Shown: positions 24,938 through 58,047 of the stretch, piece after piece
Position numbering within the stretch: position 1 is the stretch's first letter
Layout of the letters: each line of letters starts with the position of its first letter
Assembly: GCF_015751895.1 (NCBI RefSeq)
Contig: NZ_JADOTZ010000001.1
Coordinates: 310,001 to 374,000, forward strand
Length of the DNA stretch: 64,000 bases
Direction: 5' to 3'
DNA from: Zhihengliuella flava
Lineage (GTDB): Bacteria; Actinomycetota; Actinomycetes; Actinomycetales; Micrococcaceae
The notes under the pieces: model-generated
What the model saw: the letters and a program-made list of their open reading frames with translations, nothing else
Told to the model about the DNA's origin: nothing
Database searches by the model: none
Translations under genes and position numbers: made by a program

Positions 24938-27900
24938 TCAGGAGGGATCCAACTCGTTCATCAGGGAATGCATCACGACGCTGCGGCTAAACTGCCGTGC
25001 CACTTCCCGAGAGGCGGCCCCGCGCCTTGTGAATAACGGTGGGTTATCCGCGCAGGACAGGAGATCCGCTGCCATGGCAGCAACGTCGTCGTACACCCAT
25101 TCCCCCGGGTAAATGTCCTCAACGCCCGGCCAGGACAGCGACATGGGTAGCGCGCCGGAGGCCGCCCCGTCGGCCAGTGTCAGGTGGAACGACTCGAAGT
25201 CGCTCATGGACAAGGCCACACCAATGCGTCCGTAAAAGTCGGTCATGTCCATGCCAAAGCCCGCGAAGTCGACAGCTCCGGCCAGCAGCGGGTCGCTTGT
25301 GCACCGTTCAAATTGACGCTCGAAGTATTGCCGCTGGTCCTCCTGGCGCATGATCCACGGGTACTCCTCCGGCAGTTTGCCCTTGACGACGAGGTGGAAT
25401 CGTTCATCGTGGGCTCGCAGAATGGCCAGGAGGTCCAGTGCGCGGTCGAGGTGTTTCTGGGAAGGCACCATGCCAACGAGACCTAGTGTGAATCGTGCTT
25501 CCATATTCTTGGGCAAGTCGAAGAGCGCGGGGGCGACGGCATTCGGGACGACCGTTGTGGCGGCTCTGTCCAACCCGTAGGTGATGCATGCGGCGTCCCG
25601 CACGTGCCCGCCGACGAAGATCCACCGGTCTACCCGCGAGAGATCCACGTCGCGAAGGTACGGCGTGAAGAGCTCCTGCGAATGAAAGCGAACGATGAGC
25701 CGCTGATGCGGCTCCACGTGTCGGGCGTACCACGCAGCGTTGCCCAGAGCCCATTCACACCACACCACGTCGGCTTGGCGGAGGAGGTGCTCGCTCTGTT
25801 CGACGTCGTGTTCCTCATGGTCGCCCCAGGCGTCTCTCTGAACGTTCCACCCGGCCACCTCCAGCTCGTGGACGAGGCCATCTGCAAACTTCAGGTCATG
25901 TCCTGCGATCAACAAAGACGGGCGCCCATGGCTTCGGGACACTGACGGCGCCCCCTCGGTGCGCAGCAGATCCCGTGGCAGCTCTACCGCGGAATCACCA
26001 GGCACAGGAGCCTCCCCAAACCAGAAAGCTGGTACTTTCTGATCCACCGCACGGATCGCCGGTCGGCCACATGTCTGGTCAGTCTCAGGGGAAACGTCGG
26101 GGCCTACGGTTGCCGCAATGGGGGCCGCTGCTGGCCACAGTTGCTGCCCAATCCACCACAGCCGTGCGAGGTCTTCGGCCAGCGTGGGCGCCAACAGCAA
26201 TTCATCGGTTCCACCCTCCTGACACGTGAAGACGGCGGTAGCCAACTCGGGATCTGGCTCCTGGATGACGCCTACCCCCGCACTTCGAAGAGTTGCCTTC
26301 GCGGCCTCGAAGTCGCCCACCGCCTGTTTGTTCTCGGCACGCACAAGGACACTCTGCGGCCGGTGCGTCTGCGCCAGCACAGTCTGCGCCACGGCCTCCG
26401 TCGCGTGGTCGAGCTCGAGCTGATATGCGGGCAGCGAGGCTCCCTCGACGCCAACGCCAGCCGTGCGGAGCATGATGACCAAGCGGTGGCTCGCCAAGTG
26501 ACTGCGGTAGACGTGCCGCGCCAAGCGCCACCCGTCCCGGCGGCGCTCGGCCGGATGATCACGCCAATAATCGATGAGTTCGCGGGCCTCTTCACGACTG
26601 GTCGGTTGGGGCACCAGGTCGCCAAACAGGCCCGTGACCGCTTGCCCCCGCCCGCTGATCACGGGAGTCCCACACGCAGCGATTTCCGCAACTCGCCGGG
26701 AGAACATCGTCGGGGACGTGGACACAGAGTTGACGTTGAGATGAATCGCGTGCGCCCGGTACGCCTCGAGGGTCGCCGGATACGTCAGGCCTGCCTTAAC
26801 CGATGACGCGACGTGCTCCGGGAATCGGTAGGGACTGTTCTGAACGGTGAGCTGACGATCGTAGATCGCTAGGTCACCGCCGGCTGCGTCCAAGAGCATC
26901 TCCAGTTCGGCCGAGCGCTCCGGATAGCGGTCCCCATAGTACGTTCCCGCATAGGACACGAGCTCCGGTGCTGCCGCTTCGCCGTCGTACTCCGTGTCCA
27001 GCCGCGCCGGGTGCGTCTCTGCGGAGACGGGGTGGTGCAGCCGGGGCTGGGCGAAGAAGGGCGCTGAAATGACCATAACTCCCTCCCCGATGTGCTGCAG
27101 GTAGGTCGGGAGGCAGTCCGCATCGGTCGTCGCGACGACATCAAAGAGGAGCGCGTTCTCGATAAAGCGGTCGGTGTGGACGGGATCTTCCTTGTTCCAG
27201 AAAATCGTCGGAATCAACCGTTCCCGGCACGCTAGGACCAGGTGGCGTAATGGCTCGCTCTCGGCATCGCTGTAGTGCCCAACGCCGCGCGTCCACGCAC
27301 CGCCGTTGCCAGCCCACGCCGATTCAACGATCAGGGCGTCCAGCGCTTCCTCCTCGAGAACCGTCCCCCAGTTTTCCGGCGTCAACGGAATAAGGGTGGC
27401 TTCCCCCGCGAGTGCGGCAGCCGTGAATTCGTCGGCAATCAGCCCAATTCGCACGTCACTCAACCGCGGCAACCGGGTTGCGGTGGACCCCGAAGCCAAC
27501 GATCGGTGCCGTGCCCACAGTTGATCTGCGCGCTCCTGCAGGCTGTACTTTTCCACGACGTGGCGGCGCACGCGTCTCGCCGCGTCAGCTCGGCCTGGCG
27601 CATCTTGAACCCAACGCCGCAGCTCATCGACGGACGCCGAGTCGACGGCGAGGACACCCATGGCCTCGGCCCGAACCCGCACGGCGTCCAGCGGTGCATC
27701 GGCCTCAGCCGTGTCCCAGAGCAGAATGTCCGCCAACGAGAGAAGTCGATCGAAGGTGCCATGAACTGAATGCCCCGATCCGCCCCGGGACAGTGCCACG
27801 GTTTGCTCGCCCAGCCCGGCCGTCGCGAGTTCTTGCATGAGCGCGTCGGCAACCGGCTGGGTGTCGCAGAACAAGATCACCTTGACCGCGGCAGCATCGC

Positions 27901-28951
27901 CGGCTGAGGCGAGGATTCGCCGAGCCAGAGGGACGGCACTCGCTAGGTGCTCCGGTGCTGGCACCAGCACAACGACGTCGTCCGGCTCCAGTTTGAGGTG
28001 TGCACGCACCGCGCGGACAAGGTCCCGATCGCGGCGCTGCGGGAAGTAGCGTCGCGTTTCGACGACGACGGGCGCGGCGGGGTCCACGGCAGGATCCGCA
28101 ACCGCCGGGACATTAAAACGCCTCGCGGCAACCTCAGCCGCCACCCTCACCATCGGGTCAGTCACGGCGAGGTGAACCGTCGCGGGACGATGCGTCATGA
28201 GTGCCCGCCCGAGCGCGTCGGCCACGACCTGCCACCCCAACGCGGGGCTTTCAGGCAGGGCCGGTGCCTGGTGGACAACGACGTCCGCTCCGAGCCAATC
28301 TAACCGCCGCGCGGTGTCGCTGAGAGTTTCTTCGATGAGCTCATCGGTCAGCTCCCGCTGCGCGAAGGTGCTTTGGGATGCGTCGCGGACGACGAGGACC
28401 CGGTCCGGAACCGGATGATAGGCCGGGTGCGCCCCCAGAGGTGGCAGAGCGGAAAGATCCGCTCCACCCATGGGGGCAGTCGTTGGAACTTGACGTGCGT
28501 CCGCTGCCGGCCCGTGACGTGGGGGGCGGCTACTCTGCTGCACTCCACGATCTCGGGGACCCCAGGTAGTGGAGGTGAGTCGGCGGAGAACCTTTCCAAC
28601 CTTGCCGCCGAGATGAATCAGCCGGACGGCAGGATTCTTCAGCAGTCGCGCGTGGGCGTGCTTGAAACGTTCGGCCCGTTCGGCCTGCCTGACGTACAAC
28701 TCATTGAGGCGGTCACGCCGCGCCACTGCAGCGGCCAACGTGCGGCGCACCGACGCGAGCTCATGGTTCAGGCGCGCGACTTCACGTCGCGAACTCTGCA
28801 ATTCTGCATCGGTGCTGGCCACATGGGCCAGCAGCTCCTGCGGCTCATCCGCAAACCGCTGGTACTCGCGCATGTGCGCATAACGCCGTGCGCGAGCCGC
28901 GGGGCTCGTGTCGGCGGCGGACCGTGGCGGCCTCCTCTTGCTCAACGCCAC
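24938..28951 (-). CDS. very large multidomain glycosyltransferase
   Basis: 1337 residues, one of the largest genes here. Residues about 35-110 form a coiled coil. A first GT-B-like part spans about 185-490. A CgeB/DUF3880-like part spans about 500-840 (PTIFWNKEDPVHTDRF; TSPTMFSRRVAEIAACGTPVI near 745). A C-terminal GT4-type domain spans about 1025-1335 (HDLKFADGLVHELE; DFESFHLTLADGAASGALPM). No signal peptide or membrane helix is clear. It starts 2 bases after the ABC-type gene ends, in the order permease, ATP-binding-like protein, transferase. A role in completing or capping the polymer at the exporter is possible, but this is inference. The number of active sites is uncertain. Confidence 0.82.
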   Translation of the reverse strand: MALSKRRPPRSAADTSPAARARRYAHMREYQRFADEPQELLAHVASTDAELQSSRREVARLNHELASVRRTLAAAVARRDRLNELYVRQAERAERFKHAHARLLKNPAVRLIHLGGKVGKVLRRLTSTTWGPRDRGVQQSSRPPRHGPAADARQVPTTAPMGGADLSALPPLGAHPAYHPVPDRVLVVRDASQSTFAQRELTDELIEETLSDTARRLDWLGADVVVHQAPALPESPALGWQVVADALGRALMTHRPATVHLAVTDPMVRVAAEVAARRFNVPAVADPAVDPAAPVVVETRRYFPQRRDRDLVRAVRAHLKLEPDDVVVLVPAPEHLASAVPLARRILASAGDAAAVKVILFCDTQPVADALMQELATAGLGEQTVALSRGGSGHSVHGTFDRLLSLADILLWDTAEADAPLDAVRVRAEAMGVLAVDSASVDELRRWVQDAPGRADAARRVRRHVVEKYSLQERADQLWARHRSLASGSTATRLPRLSDVRIGLIADEFTAAALAGEATLIPLTPENWGTVLEEEALDALIVESAWAGNGGAWTRGVGHYSDAESEPLRHLVLACRERLIPTIFWNKEDPVHTDRFIENALLFDVVATTDADCLPTYLQHIGEGVMVISAPFFAQPRLHHPVSAETHPARLDTEYDGEAAAPELVSYAGTYYGDRYPERSAELEMLLDAAGGDLAIYDRQLTVQNSPYRFPEHVASSVKAGLTYPATLEAYRAHAIHLNVNSVSTSPTMFSRRVAEIAACGTPVISGRGQAVTGLFGDLVPQPTSREEARELIDYWRDHPAERRRDGWRLARHVYRSHLASHRLVIMLRTAGVGVEGASLPAYQLELDHATEAVAQTVLAQTHRPQSVLVRAENKQAVGDFEAAKATLRSAGVGVIQEPDPELATAVFTCQEGGTDELLLAPTLAEDLARLWWIGQQLWPAAAPIAATVGPDVSPETDQTCGRPAIRAVDQKVPAFWFGEAPVPGDSAVELPRDLLRTEGAPSVSRSHGRPSLLIAGHDLKFADGLVHELEVAGWNVQRDAWGDHEEHDVEQSEHLLRQADVVWCEWALGNAAWYARHVEPHQRLIVRFHSQELFTPYLRDVDLSRVDRWIFVGGHVRDAACITYGLDRAATTVVPNAVAPALFDLPKNMEARFTLGLVGMVPSQKHLDRALDLLAILRAHDERFHLVVKGKLPEEYPWIMRQEDQRQYFERQFERCTSDPLLAGAVDFAGFGMDMTDFYGRIGVALSMSDFESFHLTLADGAASGALPMSLSWPGVEDIYPGEWVYDDVAAMAADLLSCADNPPLFTRRGAASREVARQFSRSVVMHSLMNELDPS

Positions 28952-28953
28952 GT

Positions 28954-29748
28954 TCAGTCCGCCCCGTGAAGAACGATCCGTCGAGGCGGGATTTGGTTCT
29001 TCCGCACCCGGTGGATGCGCCTGATCTCTGCCTCGTCCTGAGCGCGCTGGGCCTTGACGAGGGCGGCCTTCATCTTCCGCATTCGACCCGGATCGGCCTC
29101 GCCGACCAGCTGGCCGTCTTCCATCCAGAGGATCCGATCGGGACGGTTCATCAGAACACGCGCCTCCGGGGCCGTCATCACCACAGATCCGCCGCTCTCC
29201 CGAAACGCATCGAGGTGCGCTGCACCGTACTCATCATCAATGGCCTCGAAGAACGCCGAGGCCGGGTGCAGAACCATCACCGGTCGCTGCAATGCGAGGC
29301 CCATATGGAGGCGCGCCCGCTGAACCACATCCTCCTCCACATTGCCGACGGTCATGCCGAGCAGATCAGTCACATCGGCGTCGATGGCCACGGATTCGAT
29401 CATCCGCTTCAGGGCTCGGCCGCTGATTTTGTACGCCATACCCATGGACGTGAGGTTGAACCGCAGTGATTCTTGCGGATCGAACGTGTTGGCTCCGGTG
29501 AGGACGACGACGTCGTGGCGGCTAAAGACTCGACCGCTGGCGGCCCCGACGCTGCCGACGATGAGGTCAATCAGCAAGTCAACGCCGTCTTGGCGATTGC
29601 CAATGATACCGACCGTTTCGCCCGGAAAAAGTGCCACACTGAGCGGTCCGAGATGCACCTCGAGGGCAGTCTTACCGCTGCCATAAGTGTGGGTAGCGGC
29701 CACGTTGTGGAGCACGAGGTGCGGATGAATCGGCGTCTGGTCAGTCAA
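28954..29748 (-). CDS. ABC-transporter ATP-binding-like protein lacking catalytic motifs
   Basis: About 264 residues with the overall plan of a Wzt/TagH-type polysaccharide exporter ATPase. The Walker A position reads GIIGNRQDGVD (no Lys, no Ser/Thr). Walker B reads VMVLHPASAFF (no Asp-Glu). The LSGGQ site reads GNVEEDVVQRAR, and the H-loop His is replaced in VVMTAPEARVL. It therefore should not hydrolyse ATP in the usual way. The TTG at 29748, overlapping the permease stop by 8 bases and preceded by GAAAGGA, is preferred; a GTG at 29781 lacks a ribosome-binding site. It could be a pseudo-ATPase partner, an adaptor between permease and transferase, or a decaying gene, although the frame is fully open. 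Confidence 0.78.
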   Translation of the reverse strand: MTDQTPIHPHLVLHNVAATHTYGSGKTALEVHLGPLSVALFPGETVGIIGNRQDGVDLLIDLIVGSVGAASGRVFSRHDVVVLTGANTFDPQESLRFNLTSMGMAYKISGRALKRMIESVAIDADVTDLLGMTVGNVEEDVVQRARLHMGLALQRPVMVLHPASAFFEAIDDEYGAAHLDAFRESGGSVVMTAPEARVLMNRPDRILWMEDGQLVGEADPGRMRKMKAALVKAQRAQDEAEIRRIHRVRKNQIPPRRIVLHGAD

Positions 29749-30640
29749 CGCTTGCCCGGTCCTTTCGGTAGCGGCCGCCACGGTGCCAGATCAGAAATGC
29801 GCCGAGCAGAGTTGGGATCAATCCCCACAGCCCAAGCACAATCCAGCCATCGGCAGGTGGCCACGTTGCGTAGATCAAAAGATCGCGGGTCAGTTCCAAC
29901 ACCCAGCGAAGTGGATTCCAGTATGAAATGAACTCGAAAGCTGGTCCTAAATTCTCGATGCGGCTAATTTCAAACATAACGCCCGAACCGAACATCCAAG
30001 CTCGCATCGCGATACGCAGCAGGTTGTCTAAATCGGGAATGATCCCGACCCAGTGCGCTGCTAGCAAGGACATCCCAAGGTTCATGAACATCTGGAGCGG
30101 AACGATAAGCAATGCTCCAAAGGCCAATGCGGTGAACTCTTCAACGGGAGGGATCAGCACGATCAGGAGGACCAACACTAGATATCCGGGGAGACCGCTA
30201 AGCCAAACTCTCAGGTTGGAAACGATCGGGACAACGACGGGCGGGAGCCCGGCCGCATCAACGAGTTTATTATCTTTGACGTAAGACTTCGCCGCGTTCG
30301 TAACACACCGGGCGCTCATGCGGTACATGAAAATCCCGATCAAAAGGTACGCTACGAAGTTGTCAATGCCCTTGTCGAGTTGCAGGATCAACGCAAAGAG
30401 GGCGTAGTAGAGGATGCCATCCAAAATGGGGTTCAGGATGAGCCAGAGATGACCGAGAATCATCTCGCGCCCTTCACCTTGAACACTAGTACGCGCCTCG
30501 TGAAACACGAAGCTGCGGGCGTCCCAGACCTTGAGAAGGTAGTCGCTGAAAGAGGACCGTGCGCCGCGTTCGGTGAGGCCACTGACGTTAACGACGACCG
30601 GTTCCTGCTGGGGCCGAGCCGCCTGTTTGGCTTCACTCAT
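29741..30640 (-). CDS. ABC-2 type polysaccharide export permease
   Basis: 299 residues with about six membrane helices and the ABC-2 family pattern of Wzm/TagG permeases: REMILGHLWLILNPILDGILYYALF near 57-80 begins the first helical pair, with the usual amphipathic region before it. Later helices include YLVLVLLIVLIPPV and the C-terminal GWIVLGLWGLIPTLLGAFL. Such permeases carry lipid-linked O-antigen, teichoic acid or galactan across the membrane. It overlaps the upstream glycosyltransferase by 4 bases and the ATPase-like gene by 8 bases. It is the only exporter permease of this type in the window, so it is the likely route out for the polymer. Confidence 0.9.
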   Translation of the reverse strand: MSEAKQAARPQQEPVVVNVSGLTERGARSSFSDYLLKVWDARSFVFHEARTSVQGEGREMILGHLWLILNPILDGILYYALFALILQLDKGIDNFVAYLLIGIFMYRMSARCVTNAAKSYVKDNKLVDAAGLPPVVVPIVSNLRVWLSGLPGYLVLVLLIVLIPPVEEFTALAFGALLIVPLQMFMNLGMSLLAAHWVGIIPDLDNLLRIAMRAWMFGSGVMFEISRIENLGPAFEFISYWNPLRWVLELTRDLLIYATWPPADGWIVLGLWGLIPTLLGAFLIWHRGGRYRKDRASVD

Positions 30641-32400
30641 GCAGTTTCCTCTTCCACGGTCACTACCGTACTGCGACCACTCATCGCCAGCTGGTAGGCC
30701 TCGATACTGATCTGCGCGTTGCGCGGCCAGGTCCGGTGCGTGAGCACCTCCCGACGGCCGTGGCGGCCCATGCTCATGCGGAGTTCCTTGTCCTCCAGCA
30801 GCTGCCGTAGCGCCGTCGCGAGCGCCGCGGGATCCTCCGGCGGCACGGCCAAGCCGCTCTCCCCCGGCCGCACCAGTTCCGTCAGGGCGGGCAGGTCAGC
30901 CACGACGACGGGGCGTTCCGAGGCCATGGCCTCAACCGGTTTCAGCGGCGTGACCGTGCGCGTGACCTGGAAGTCCTTCCGCGGGACCACGAATACGTCC
31001 AAAGCTCGGTGCCACAGCGGAGCCTCGCGTGCTGGCACCCGCCCTCGGAAAATGGCCGCTGGCTCCAGCCCGAGCGAGATCGCGTGGGCCCTCAATCGCG
31101 GCATCGCGGCACCGTCTCCCACGATCACCAGTTCGACGTCCCGCCGCTCCGCGGCAATCTGCGCGTAGGCCGTCAGCAAATCGTCGAGACCCTCATAGTC
31201 CACCAAGGAGGAGACGGTGCCAATGTGGAGGCGATCGCTATCCAGGTGCACGGCGGCCTTAGCCTTGGCGTGTTCCAGCGGCGGCTCAAGGTACGCGCTG
31301 CCGACGCCATTGGGCAAGATGAACACCCGCTCTTCCGGCGTCCCGCTGCGAATGATGCGTTCCCGCATGGCCCGCCCCAAGGTAAACACGGCTGCCGCCG
31401 ACCGCTGAACCTCGGCCTCACGAGCGACGAACCGCTGATAGCGTTCCGTGCTGGTCGCCGTCGTGCCGTGTTTGGAGGCCCACGTATCCGCCAACTGGCC
31501 GCGCACTTCGTACACCCACGGGATGCCCAGCGCCTCCGCCACCGCTCGCACCACAAGCCCATTGACGAAGTGCGTGGTGGTGTGGAGCACGGCCGGGCGA
31601 AGCCGCAGCGCGAGGGATAGCAGCTCTTCCGCCTCGCGCTGCAGGCGCGCGTCCAGACCCGGGGGCACGGCAGCGGCCGGGAGCCGGTGATAAACGACCC
31701 CGTCCACGGTCTCCGACTCCGGGGCATCGAGGACTCCGATCGACTCGGGATATCCGCGTCGCGTCACCGCGTGAACGTCCCACCCCTCGGCTGCCTGAGC
31801 GCCGAGCAATGACTGGGACCGATACGTGTACCCCGTGGAGGTGTAGGGCACCGAGTTAGTAAGCAGGTGGAGCACCGTGGCTTCTGCCGGCCTGTAGTCC
31901 GAGACGGCGCGGAGCCGCGGTACCCAGTCGTGGAACACGGCGCGCTCGCCCCGCATCCGTTCCAGCATGCGCCGGTGCGGGGTCTCGGCGCTCGCGAGGC
32001 GCTCGATGGCTTCCTCTAACCGGCCCTGATAGAAGTCCAAATTCGCCAGAGTGCGAGCCGTGCCCTGCCGTCCGCCAATCCGGGCGGCGAATTCGCCCGA
32101 CAGCCCCGGCAGTTGGGCGTGGAGTGCCACATCGGCAAAGTACTGTGCCCGCTTGCCGTGCGGCGCCCGTTCGAGCGCCTCGTTCAGGCGAAAGGTCAAC
32201 GTTTCGCTTTCCTCGAGCACCAAGGCGCTCAGCGCCGCCGTCCGCGAGGAGGGCCGGACACTGAGCAGGCGGTCAACGACAGCGAGGGCACCGCGCGAGA
32301 CACTGCCAGCGCGTCGATTAAAGACGCGGTAGACGAAGCCCACCGGGTCTTCGCGCCAGTTCCGGTGGATAATCGCGAGGTGCTTCAACTGTTCCTTCAT
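30637..32400 (-). CDS. GT4-family glycosyltransferase
   Basis: 587 residues. The first 180 are helical and of unknown role. The catalytic GT-B region at about 185-565 begins VLHLLTNSVPYTSTGYTYR. It has the donor-site features VGDGAAMPRLRAHA near 440 and the motif TRTVTPLKPVEAMASERPVVV near 490-510 with the family's second Glu. No membrane segment is seen. It precedes the exporter permease with a 4-base overlap and follows the repeat protein gene by 3 bases, so it is one of five genes in a tight operon. It probably adds a sugar before export; substrate unknown. Confidence 0.88.
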   Translation of the reverse strand: MKEQLKHLAIIHRNWREDPVGFVYRVFNRRAGSVSRGALAVVDRLLSVRPSSRTAALSALVLEESETLTFRLNEALERAPHGKRAQYFADVALHAQLPGLSGEFAARIGGRQGTARTLANLDFYQGRLEEAIERLASAETPHRRMLERMRGERAVFHDWVPRLRAVSDYRPAEATVLHLLTNSVPYTSTGYTYRSQSLLGAQAAEGWDVHAVTRRGYPESIGVLDAPESETVDGVVYHRLPAAAVPPGLDARLQREAEELLSLALRLRPAVLHTTTHFVNGLVVRAVAEALGIPWVYEVRGQLADTWASKHGTTATSTERYQRFVAREAEVQRSAAAVFTLGRAMRERIIRSGTPEERVFILPNGVGSAYLEPPLEHAKAKAAVHLDSDRLHIGTVSSLVDYEGLDDLLTAYAQIAAERRDVELVIVGDGAAMPRLRAHAISLGLEPAAIFRGRVPAREAPLWHRALDVFVVPRKDFQVTRTVTPLKPVEAMASERPVVVADLPALTELVRPGESGLAVPPEDPAALATALRQLLEDKELRMSMGRHGRREVLTHRTWPRNAQISIEAYQLAMSGRSTVVTVEEETA

Positions 32401-32403
32401 CCG

Positions 32404-33258
32404 TCAGTGGTGGGCTTTCTTGGGCCGGCGGATGACTTTGAGGTAGTACACGACGGCGGCGGCGAGGACACCGACGAAGACCAGGGCGTTGACCCACAGC
32501 TGATTGCTAGTGCTGGCGGCCTGCTCCACGTCGGCGACCGTCTTCGTGCCGGGTTCTGTTGCTGCGCCGGATGGTTGACTCGCGCCGGCCGCGGCGGATG
32601 ACGCGCTGGCCAAGGCCTCCTCGCTAGACCGACCGCTTGAGGGCGAGGCGTCAACGGACGCGCTCGCGGTGCTACTCCCCTCCGCACTCGACGCAGAGGT
32701 CGATACCCCGCTTGAACTGGCGGTCGCCGGGTCCGCATACAGCACCCGGCCCGTGGTGAAGCTGTAGACGTACCCCGAATCCGCCAAGGAGCCCGGCAGC
32801 ACCATGTGACCCGTCGAGGGAACGATCAGGTATCCGGTGCGTGGGTGCACGTAATAACCGGTGGCCGGGTCCACCGTGTAGCCGCCGGAGTCCTGTGGGG
32901 GGTCTAGCTGCGCTTCTTGCTGGGGCGCCGGATCGTCGTCTGTCACGGGAGCCGGCGACGCTTGGGAGGACGTCCGCGATTCTGATTCCACGGCCGTTGC
33001 TTCCGGCGTCGGGGACGGCCGAGGCGAGGGGGCGCTCGTTGACTCCGCTGAAGGCGACGGGCTGGCCAACTCGATCAGTCCGTCGCTAATGTCCGAGTCC
33101 GGCACGGTCGTGGTCCTCGCGGTCCAACCGCCCGCTCCCGGCGCGGGCTGCGGGTCAGCGTTGACGGCAGCCGACGCCGTCGTACCCCCGAAAAATCCAA
33201 CGACGACGACGGCGCCCGCCGCCGTGGCAGCGGCACAGCGTGTCATGCGTGTAGTCAC
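32404..33258 (-). CDS. secreted repeat protein with C-terminal membrane anchor
   Basis: About 284 residues. The N-terminus (MTRCAAATAAGAVVVVGFFG, ending TTASAA) is a signal peptide. Long stretches rich in Ser, Ala, Pro and Thr flank a central repeat of about 9 residues: ATGYYVHPR, TGYLIVPS, TGHMVLPG, then a degenerate TGRVLYADP. A C-terminal helix (LWVNALVFVGVLAAAVVYYL) with a basic tail would anchor it in the membrane. GTG 33258 is chosen because GGAG lies 5 bases upstream; GTG 33294 is an alternative. I do not recognise the family. As the first gene of the exporter operon it may bind or guide the polymer outside the cell; that is inference. Confidence 0.72.
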   Translation of the reverse strand: MTTRMTRCAAATAAGAVVVVGFFGGTTASAAVNADPQPAPGAGGWTARTTTVPDSDISDGLIELASPSPSAESTSAPSPRPSPTPEATAVESESRTSSQASPAPVTDDDPAPQQEAQLDPPQDSGGYTVDPATGYYVHPRTGYLIVPSTGHMVLPGSLADSGYVYSFTTGRVLYADPATASSSGVSTSASSAEGSSTASASVDASPSSGRSSEEALASASSAAAGASQPSGAATEPGTKTVADVEQAASTSNQLWVNALVFVGVLAAAVVYYLKVIRRPKKAHH

Positions 33259-33324
33259 TCGCACTCCGTTTGCTTTCCCGCCCAACAAATTCACTAATGG
33301 CCTACCCTAGCGAAACACTGCGCG

Positions 33325-34368
33325 TCATTCCCCTTGAGACTGGATATAAGACGTGAACGAGTCGTTTTTCAAGGCTTGGGAGACCGCCTGCGTGCCCGCC
33401 TCATCCAGCAGAACGATGGATTGCCCGTCGGCCGAGCGGCCCGTTCCGAGCGTCGGCAAGGTATACGTATACACGTCCGAGCTGCGGACGTTGCGGAGGC
33501 TCAGGCCCAGCTGGCCCAGCTCGAAGGCGCTGAGGTCCTCATCCACGGTCACGTAGGGCGAAAACTCGTCCACAATGTCCGCAATGCGGCCCGGGTTAGT
33601 CAGCGTCTCCTGCTTCAGGAAGCCGGCCATCACCGACTTCAGGAACAGCTGCTGGTTGGCGACTCGCGTGTAGTCGCCGTCGGAGAACGCCTTCCGCTCG
33701 CGGACGAATCGCAGGGCGCGCTCGCCGCTGAGGGTGATCGTGCCCGCCTCATAGTGTTGGGGGTCAGGAGGCGCGGTGGTGAACTCGCGGGGATTGTTGA
33801 CCTCCACGCCGCCCAGGGCGTCGGTCAGCCCCCGAAAGCCCTCGAAGTCGATAAACGCCACATGATCCACCGGGACGTCCAGCAAGGATTCGACCGTTTG
33901 CACCAGCAGTGGAACGCCGCCGAAGGCCAGGGCCGCGTTAATCTTGTGCTCGCCTTGGCCCGGGATCTCCACCCACGTGTCACGCATGATGGACATGACA
34001 TTGATGGATTCGCGATCACCTGGCACGTTGACCAGCATCATGGTGTCAGCCCGGGCCCCATTGGGAACACCGGCCAAGTCCTCGTTCTCGCCACTGCCGC
34101 CGCGCGCATCGGAACCGATGACGAGGTAGTTCACGGCGTCCTGACTTTCAGCCTGCCGTTCCGGGCGGGACTCCGTCGGGAACGCTGACTCAATCGTCTG
34201 AGACTTGGTGTCAAAGCTGTTGGCGAGCCGCCACACATACCCTGCGGCCAGGCCGCCGGCTGCCAGCACGAGGATGAGCAGCGACGCCAGAAAGACCCGG
34301 CCGGCGCGGCGCTTCTTGCGTGGGCGCTCACGGCCGCCCCCGTCGTCGTGCATTAATTGGTCAGTCAT
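33325..34368 (-). CDS. LytR-CpsA-Psr family glycopolymer ligase
   Basis: 347 residues. A short basic cytoplasmic N-terminus is followed by one membrane helix near 24-46 and an extracellular LCP domain near 78-335. LCP enzymes transfer undecaprenyl-linked wall polymers to peptidoglycan. Visible motifs are YLVIGSDARGG near 80-90, RADTMMLVNV, IMRDTWVEIPG, KINAALAFGG, and the Arg-rich RFVRERKAFSDGDYTRVANQQ region near 228-248 that holds the pyrophosphate-binding Arg residues. It flanks the exporter operon and is the natural enzyme to attach the island's polymer to the wall. GGAAGCAGGG precedes the start. Confidence 0.92.
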   Translation of the reverse strand: MTDQLMHDDGGGRERPRKKRRAGRVFLASLLILVLAAGGLAAGYVWRLANSFDTKSQTIESAFPTESRPERQAESQDAVNYLVIGSDARGGSGENEDLAGVPNGARADTMMLVNVPGDRESINVMSIMRDTWVEIPGQGEHKINAALAFGGVPLLVQTVESLLDVPVDHVAFIDFEGFRGLTDALGGVEVNNPREFTTAPPDPQHYEAGTITLSGERALRFVRERKAFSDGDYTRVANQQLFLKSVMAGFLKQETLTNPGRIADIVDEFSPYVTVDEDLSAFELGQLGLSLRNVRSSDVYTYTLPTLGTGRSADGQSIVLLDEAGTQAVSQALKNDSFTSYIQSQGE

Positions 34369-57146: not shown

Positions 57147-57207
57147 AGGTTCATCATGTCATCCCCTGGGCTGAAGTCCTGGCGCCCTTTTCACTCCCAG
57201 GGATCGA

Positions 57208-57236
57208 TGTGTCCAGACACAGCTCAAACATAGCGT
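57208..57236 (+). promoter_or_regulatory. palindrome and -10 box before the ABC exporter genes
   Basis: TGTGTC-CA-GACACA (57208-57221) is a 6-2-6 palindrome in the -35 region. TAGCGT (57231-57236) ends 7 bases before ATG 57244. Confidence 0.4.
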
Positions 57237-57243
57237 CGTGGTC

Positions 57244-58047
57244 ATGACTGACGCCTTTTCCCCATCAACACCCATCCCCACCGGTTCCGCCCCCGCGGTC
57301 TCAGCACGAGGCCTCACCAAGGTCTACGGACAGGGCGAGACGCAGGTACGCGCCTTGGACGGGATCGACATCGACTTTCCGGCCGAGCGGTTCACGGCCA
57401 TCATGGGGCCGTCCGGATCCGGAAAGTCCACGCTGATGCATTGCCTGGCTGGTCTGGATACCGCCACCAGCGGGCAGGTCTTCATTTCAGGCCAAGACCT
57501 CACCAGCTTGAATGACGCGGGGCTGACTAGGCTGCGGCGTGACAAGGTGGGCTTCATTTTTCAGTCCTTCAACCTCGTCCCGACGCTCACCGCAGAGCAG
57601 AACATCGTCCTGCCATTGGACCTTGCCGGGACCACGTACGAACAGGCCTGGTTTGACCGGGTGATCGGCGCCCTCGGCCTAGAAACGCGGCTTCGGCATA
57701 AACCCCATCAGCTCTCCGGTGGACAGCAGCAGCGAGTCGCGGTCGCGCGGGCGCTGCTCACCCGCCCCGACGTCGTCTTCGGCGATGAACCGACCGGAAA
57801 CCTCGATTCGGCGACGGGAGCCGAGGTCCTGTCCTTCCTGCAGGCGTCCTCGCGCGACTTCGGGCAGAGCATCATCATGGTTACTCACGATCCGGTGGCG
57901 GCCAGCTACGCCGACCACGTCGTCTTGGTCCGCGACGGCGGCGTCGTCGGGCGATTGGATGAGCCCTCCGTCGATTCGGTAACGGCCGCCCTGGCTGAGC
58001 TCTCCGCGGGCACCTCCACCCCGGCCCCACGTAGGGCAGGTGCCTAG
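57244..58047 (+). CDS. ABC transporter ATP-binding protein (MacB/LolD type)
   Basis: About 267 residues. All catalytic motifs are intact: Walker A GPSGSGKST near 56-64, Q-loop FQSFNL, signature LSGGQQQRVAVARAL near 157-171, Walker B VVFGDEPTGNLDS near 176-188, and the H-loop His in MVTHDPVA. This contrasts with the degenerate ATPase-like protein at 28954. ATG 57244 has no ribosome-binding site; a GTG at 57238 is an alternative. The FtsX-type permease gene begins at its stop. Probable substrates are lipids, lipoproteins or antimicrobial peptides. Confidence 0.94.
   Translation: MTDAFSPSTPIPTGSAPAVSARGLTKVYGQGETQVRALDGIDIDFPAERFTAIMGPSGSGKSTLMHCLAGLDTATSGQVFISGQDLTSLNDAGLTRLRRDKVGFIFQSFNLVPTLTAEQNIVLPLDLAGTTYEQAWFDRVIGALGLETRLRHKPHQLSGGQQQRVAVARALLTRPDVVFGDEPTGNLDSATGAEVLSFLQASSRDFGQSIIMVTHDPVAASYADHVVLVRDGGVVGRLDEPSVDSVTAALAELSAGTSTPAPRRAGA

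Follow-up and report, generated by a model that had tools for sequence, protein, structure and literature searches.

In the 64,000-nucleotide stretch of the Zhihengliuella flava genome analysed here (the window), a gene for the nucleotide-binding domain (NBD) of a Wzt-type polysaccharide exporter lies beside the gene for an ABC-2 permease of the Wzm/TarG type, and all catalytic motifs of this NBD have been replaced. We give somewhat better than even chances to the explanation that this dead NBD, as we will call it, is a conserved pseudo-ATPase and that the pair would form an ATP-independent membrane module derived from Wzm/Wzt, acting as a platform or channel in wall-glycan assembly. This reading is sequence-based and draws on conserved motif losses, a single permease clade, open reading frames, selective constraint, a short gate region, a changed coupling segment and gene order. 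An ATPase is what defines an ABC transporter, and degenerate sites are known, with one site normally alive. The pair described here, kept in three genera with a dead NBD and a constrained permease, therefore offers a natural experiment on the roles of NBDs beyond burning ATP, and it bears on the question of ATP-independent transport or retention of lipid-linked glycans by Wzm-type channels. Among the titles listed by searches of the open-licence literature, none dealt with a fully dead Wzt or TagH.

Lost motifs and predicted fold of the NBD

A first-pass annotation, made from the sequence of the window alone, had reported that every catalytic motif of the NBD was changed, and this was borne out when Walker A, Walker B, the signature, the D-loop and the H-loop were checked against intact Wzt proteins (Table 1). 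As a reference we used eight intact Wzt proteins, seven from genomes that also carry a dead NBD (the carriers) and one from genome G202. The Walker A lysine, the signature glycine and the D-loop aspartate were present in 8/8 intact proteins versus 0/8 dead NBDs. In all eight dead NBDs the serine of the P-loop has become aspartate, which creates a new invariant Asp-Gly, and the first glycine of the loop is kept in seven. The window copy retains neither the aspartate nor the glutamate of Walker B. In 41 further live pairs, taken from the scan with the large glycosyltransferase described below, the signature YS[SAT]GM, the Walker B Asp-Glu and the H-loop histidine were found in 41/41, and Walker A in 40/41; the remaining NBD, that of locus L103, is divided between two frames, and Walker A is absent from the fragment that was compared. 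The connection between beta1 and beta2 is also altered, and measures 12-15 residues in the dead NBDs versus 21-35 in the eight intact Wzt proteins. According to the available parts of PMC6379404 and PMC7078476, this connection forms a gate helix or gate loop at the substrate entrance of Wzm-Wzt and TarGH. Residues 34-39 of the window NBD model are neither helix nor strand. The label gate helix, like those of the LG-loop and the Asp of transmembrane helix 5 (TM5) in the permease, was transferred by motif.

A Pfam scan of the window NBD returned no family at E<=1, ABC_tran included, and NCBIfam gave 19 weak matches, nearly all to ABC ATPases, including the models for the galactan-exporter Wzt and for TagH, every one far under its cut-off. 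The orthologue of G021 passes the ABC_tran cut-off of 25 bits (33.4 bits), unlike the G001 and G030 orthologues. When a profile was built from the eight orthologues, its best matches were the solved Wzt and TarH/TagH structures, and it aligned with intact Wzt at a probability of 99.9%. An AlphaFold2 model of the window NBD (predicted local distance difference test, pLDDT, 85; predicted template-modelling score 0.81) matched the Wzt structure 7k2t best (Z 24.4, root-mean-square deviation 2.7 over 231 aligned residues), level with other Wzt structures. By homology the window NBD belongs to the Wzt/TagH group, with a predicted NBD fold, and a wholly different protein family was excluded by these profile and structure matches. 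Since this protein of predicted Wzt fold lacks the motifs that define catalysis, we do not, judging from its sequence, class it as an exporter ATPase.

Orthologues, constraint and origin

Dead NBD orthologues were found in 8/395 genomes of the family (Micrococcaceae), namely in all five genomes of the window genus and in three genomes of two further genera. In a search of the 395 genomes with a profile made from the eight carriers themselves, these scored 346-401 bits and the next match at most 142.5 bits. A profile of the window genus only had already placed the other three carriers on top (135-160 bits versus at most 118). Outside the family, no dead NBD was found among 396 genomes of the order (score gap 346 versus 128 bits) or 394 genomes of the class (E<=1e-40), both sets being samples that include family members. 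In these family, order and class searches the six best candidates per genome were scored. Alignment of the orthologues, as suggested in the first-pass annotation, showed the motif loss to be conserved in 8/8, and in all eight carrier loci read the NBD gene adjoins a permease gene. The open frame first described for the window copy is shared: the frames are open in 8/8 orthologues, with pairwise identities down to 21% and with neither frameshifts nor internal stops, and a TGA flagged in the match of G003 sits upstream of the gene start.

The mean pairwise identity of the dead NBDs is 32%, versus 55% for the eight intact NBDs, and the permeases linked to them are conserved to about the same degree as live ones (46% versus 49%). 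In the dead NBDs the identity is 17% in the H-loop strand (intact 90%), 23% in the signature (intact 100%), 28% in Walker B and the D-loop (intact 91%) and 47% in Walker A (intact 94%); it is 57% in the RxxW..GxxxMD segment (intact 70%) and 27-36% in the remaining segments. New invariant residues have appeared at D65, L106, G121, L162 and I217. Because dS (synonymous divergence) exceeded 2 or was undefined in 8/12 rows, we compared differences per codon position instead. For the dead NBDs of G001 and G003 these were 0.31, 0.19 and 0.59 at first, second and third positions, and for their permeases 0.26, 0.14 and 0.56; over four pairs of dead NBDs, second positions differed by 0.19-0.24 and third positions by 0.59-0.67. 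The low values at second relative to third positions indicate purifying constraint on the dead NBD. From these comparisons, selection for catalysis is gone and selection for something else has stayed.

The permease was called normal-looking in the first-pass annotation, which is right for its ABC-2 features and not for the segment between TM2 and TM3, which differs from that of Actinomycetota relatives. It shows the features of the Wzm/TarG class, namely the ABC-2 fold, the LG-loop (LG..W with Pro) and an Asp in the TM4-5 region, and its model (pLDDT 74.6) matched TarG best (9cfl_A; Z 25.2, root-mean-square deviation 3.0, 263 residues aligned), with Wzm also matched. The coupling helix, which lies between TM2 and TM3, is seated in a groove of the NBD (available parts of PMC7078476). 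The motif of this segment is FxFP[RK] in the eight live permeases compared versus xxLPx in 8/8 dead-linked permeases. In a wider set of 41 live permeases, FxFP[RK] was present in 28, that is, in 28/29 from Actinomycetota and in 0/12 from Bacillota and Chloroflexota. The pair FP occurred in 38/41, and is therefore usual and not defining, with LP in 8/8 dead-linked permeases.

A permease tree was made from 16 permeases and those 41 of 78 large-glycosyltransferase loci that had an adjacent permease and NBD above the cut-offs; L085, L109, L110 and L115 were left out as duplicate genomes, and long branches meet at its root. The dead-linked permeases formed one clade with support 100/100, which within the Micrococcaceae grouped with Arthrobacter permeases at a weak support of 81/91. 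A scan with the large glycosyltransferase encoded next to the dead NBD covered the best 80 of 206 relatives. It gave 31 non-carrier loci with a match above 1000 bits, 15 of which have a permease-NBD pair at most 6 kb upstream; 14 of these are from Arthrobacter or other Micrococcaceae and one, L149, is from Schaalia. The NBD motifs are intact in all 15 upstream pairs except the split L103. Intact pairs at the corresponding Arthrobacter loci, together with a single dead clade, make the live state the most likely ancestral one, so that the dead state most likely arose once and would be derived from a live Wzm/Wzt. The first-pass annotation had named intact orthologues together with frameshifts in sister strains as the mark of simple decay. 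Intact pairs do exist at the Arthrobacter locus, and no frameshift was seen in the eight carriers; most probably the dead state is a derived one, yet, as the sequences read, it is common to three genera and has been kept.

The live pair, rival explanations and a proposed mode of action

The window holds no other polysaccharide-type ATPase, as had been noted before: its sole open reading frame combining a Walker A with an LSGGQ-type signature (57175-58044, plus strand) scored 31.8 bits with the intact-Wzt profile. The suggested search for a Wzt or TagH elsewhere in the genome revealed one intact Wzm/Wzt pair, whose Wzt (C1:281749-282630, 483.5 bits, next match 96.5) lies about 56 kb from the dead NBD and is the only other Wzt-class ATPase found there. 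Such a live ATPase beside a permease is present in 8/8 carriers (one each, 316-506 bits). The live pair of G021 is intact, a flagged TGA being its own stop codon, and its NBD is distant from the other live NBDs (40-49% identity). Distance matrices were compared by a Mantel test over seven genomes, with G021 excluded because its live pair comes from a different lineage and with shared descent uncorrected. The dead NBD correlated with its permease (r 0.93), the GT4-type glycosyltransferase of the same block (0.92) and the large glycosyltransferase (0.88), versus 0.15 with the live NBD and 0.05 with the live permease; live NBD and live permease correlated at 0.96. A repeat with eight genomes, comprising seven comparisons with identities rounded to whole percent, gave 0.93, 0.91 and 0.88 in the same order, 0.20 and 0.14 for the live pair, and 0.94 between live NBD and live permease. 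For the dead pair as a whole, r is 0.77-0.92 with the glycosyltransferases of its operon and 0.05-0.20 with the live pair. In G003 and G004 the live permeases cluster with that of G030, a member of another genus, whereas the dead-linked permeases track the genus. More generally, the live pairs of carriers (L040, L044, L047, L050, L053, L055 and L037) look as if they were exchanged between genera, as would be expected of variable surface-glycan loci. Co-inheritance accounts for some of the agreement within the dead operon, as swapping of live pairs does for some of the disagreement. Nothing links the dead pair to any given live pair.

The main rival explanation, which we regard as improbable, is a heteromer in which the dead permease-NBD pair assembles with the live Wzm/Wzt to give one dead and one live NBD. 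It would fit the live pair in every carrier and the observation that a degenerate site beside a live one is common in ABC exporters (available parts of PMC7756269). However, the presence of a live pair says little when Wzt relatives occur in 367/395 family genomes (E<=1e-10), and since the dead NBD has lost both Walker A and the signature in 8/8, a dead:live dimer would be without a standard ATP site, and the dead subunit does not provide for the one intact composite site of degenerate-site heterodimers. The dead NBD also shows neither linkage nor co-variation with a live partner, the live permeases do not follow the genus as the dead-linked ones do, and the live pair of G021 is of a more distant type; motifs, tree and co-variation all disfavour a heteromer. 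The first-pass annotation had offered two alternatives, a pseudo-ATPase adaptor or a permease that uses another ATPase. The former gains from a loss conserved in 8/8 under constraint. The latter, a normal permease driven in trans by the live Wzt with the dead NBD as bystander or regulator, we rate as a little more doubtful than the heteromer. The genome does hold a single candidate for the driving ATPase, the permease retains the LG-loop and Asp motifs of Wzm, and live Bacillota permeases also miss parts of FxFP[RK], but the NBD-docking segment carries LP instead of FP in 8/8, the dead NBD gene stands beside the permease gene in the eight loci read, and co-variation with the live Wzt is absent.

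That the dead NBD is a regulator, which interferes with the live exporter by competition or damping, as a dominant-negative subunit or sensor, is distinctly unlikely: it is a paralogue of the live ATPase with its predicted fold kept, but it comes with a dedicated permease conserved about as well as live ones, and co-variation of the dead with the live pair is lacking. Ordinary decay, whereby a duplicated exporter ATPase is becoming a pseudogene, would explain why the residues replacing the catalytic ones vary among species, why the dead NBDs evolve faster than live ones and why no copy in the genus has diverged further than that of the window. It is nevertheless very unlikely, given 8/8 open frames in three genera at such low identities, the codon-position differences and the new invariant residues. 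Decay or sequencing error as the source of the motif loss was rejected, since the loss recurs in eight genomes with open frames.

For the pseudo-ATPase reading we propose the following course. A Wzm/Wzt (TarG/TagH-like) pair would have been duplicated in the Micrococcaceae, with duplication as the presumed first step. One copy, as its sequences show, gave up the motifs that bind and hydrolyse ATP along with the greater part of the substrate-gating loop in its NBD, and its permease changed in the facing segment. According to the model, the NBD fold has survived in the dead NBD. Each genome yielded a single dead NBD gene, so the protein most likely dimerises with itself on a dimer of its own permease, with both ATP sites void, and such a complex would not pump by means of ATP. 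Its most likely role would be that of a membrane platform, which keeps the operon's two glycosyltransferases and the lipid-linked wall glycan they make at a Wzm-type channel; this channel would either act without ATP or only deliver the glycan to the live exporter and to a LytR-CpsA-Psr (LCP) ligase. Tentatively, and at somewhat less than even chances, we suggest that the dead transporter works without ATP, either as a passive, lipid-gated or potential-driven glycan channel or as a scaffold for the two glycosyltransferases.

Several observations weigh against a conserved pseudo-ATPase module. Single catalytic residues survive in some dead NBDs (Walker B Asp in 4/8, Walker B Glu in 2/8, H-loop His in 1/8). 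Within the genus, the window NBD and its large glycosyltransferase have diverged furthest, and this copy may be losing a function that its orthologues retain. Between G001 and G002 the glycosyltransferases are 82-90% identical, versus 58% for the dead NBD and 64% for the permease; the dead pair may have been exchanged or be fast-evolving there. Live Bacillota exporters lack the first Phe of FxFP[RK] and mostly its basic residue, so that only the change from FP to LP stands out across live permeases, which weakens the argument from the coupling segment. The folding models cover single chains only, and the loss of ATP binding, the complex and its lack of ATP-driven transport are what we infer beyond them. 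Finally, the platform role and the contact with the glycosyltransferases are drawn from gene order and co-variation, and genes that are inherited together co-vary without contact.

Gene block and comparison with known systems

The minus-strand block encodes, in this order, an LCP ligase, a protein with a VHPRTG motif, a GT4-type glycosyltransferase, the ABC-2 permease, the dead NBD and a large glycosyltransferase (Table 1). For the NBD gene, the TTG start at 29748 matches the lengths of the orthologues better than the GTG at 29781.

Table 1. Features of the dead-NBD operon, with positions in the window (G000 C1:310001-374000; genome of 2.9 Mb in a single contig)
Feature	Position	Strand	Remarks
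Dead Wzt-type NBD	28954..29748	-	264 aa from TTG 29748; 275 aa if the start is GTG 29781
Shortened beta1-beta2 connection (gate helix/gate loop region)	29656..29691	-	12 residues
Former Walker A	29575..29601	-	Now GNRQDGVDL; intact Wzt of same genome GRNGSGKST
Former ABC signature	29326..29340	-	Now VEEDV; intact Wzt of same genome YSSGM
Former Walker B and D-loop	29245..29280	-	Now VMVLHPASAFFE; intact Wzt of same genome ILVIDEALNTGD
Former H-loop His	29167..29169	-	Now Pro
ABC-2 (Wzm/TarG-type) permease	29741..30640	-	8-base overlap with NBD gene given TTG start
TM2-TM3 segment, presumed coupling helix	30200..30268	-	KLVDAAGLPPVVVPIVSNLRVWL; position inferred from permease model and available parts of PMC7078476
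Large coiled-coil multi-domain glycosyltransferase	24938..28951	-	1337 aa
GT4-type glycosyltransferase	30637..32400	-	587 aa
Putative secreted, membrane-anchored protein with VHPRTGYLI motif	32404..33294	-	System member by gene order only
LCP wall-polymer ligase	33325..34368	-	PF03816, E 1.7e-43; system member by gene order only

The length given for the large glycosyltransferase in the first-pass annotation was correct. It is about 1471-1523 aa in other carriers, and the window protein is without the GT4 domain that is present in both longer carrier counterparts scanned; judged from its sequence, it is a second reduced part of the operon, beside the NBD. Pfam placed this GT4 domain at residues 264-631 of the large glycosyltransferase of L039, and GT4 was also seen in those of L052 and L094. 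Glycosyltransferases with an AGHDLKF/ASHDLKF motif, as in the large glycosyltransferase, were observed just behind three live Wzt genes (L047 7691-9628, L050 10853-12823 and L053 7722-9539); given these, the glycan pathways served by the dead and the live pair may be related. The LCP ligase, identified by Pfam in the window, points to a wall polymer, and LCP-like proteins were recognised by eye in L039, L048 and L051. The VHPRTG-motif protein has similar counterparts in G004, G021 and G030. It has a VHPRTGxLIVPSTG-like motif, a C-terminal anchor and a Pfam OCRE match of 28.3 bits, and is probably secreted. Proteins of this type occur near an LCP ligase or GT4 gene in L048 (14510-15490), L051 (4905-6984, two copies) and L052 (6024-6923); in L039 the interval between the GT4 and LCP genes is too small for one.

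Among known systems, the Wzm-Wzt exporters of the O-antigen and mycobacterial galactan type (7k2t, 6m96, 9qfx) share with the dead pair the folds of NBD and permease, the gene pairing, the LG-loop and the permease Asp. Unlike them, the dead pair is without the Walker A Lys, the signature and the D-loop Asp, its gate region is cut and its coupling segment changed. The wall teichoic acid exporter TarG-TarH/TagGH (6jbh, 9cfl, 7dd0) is matched by the permease model, for which 9cfl_A was best, and by the NBD profile; the dead pair differs from it by the same losses and changes in NBD and permease, and here two glycosyltransferase genes flank the pair. Loss of catalytic residues is shared with the degenerate-site exporters TmrAB, TM287/288, TAP, ABCG5/G8 and Pdr5 and with the fused NBDs of RbsA/NupO (available parts of PMC7756269 and PMC11466899). 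In those systems one composite site is intact, whereas here a single subunit, the dead NBD, has lost both Walker A and the signature, and the adjoining genes encode no intact partner. The Arthrobacter locus, as in L094, L112 and L117, with the order glycosyltransferase, Wzm, Wzt, glycosyltransferase, UDP-sugar dehydrogenase (confirmed by Pfam in L094 only) and large glycosyltransferase, has in common with the dead locus the order of permease, NBD and large glycosyltransferase, a homologous large glycosyltransferase and, at the weak support given above, the permease ancestry. Its NBD motifs are intact, and the dead locus is without the second glycosyltransferase and the dehydrogenase that, as in L094, stand between the permease-NBD pair and the large glycosyltransferase.
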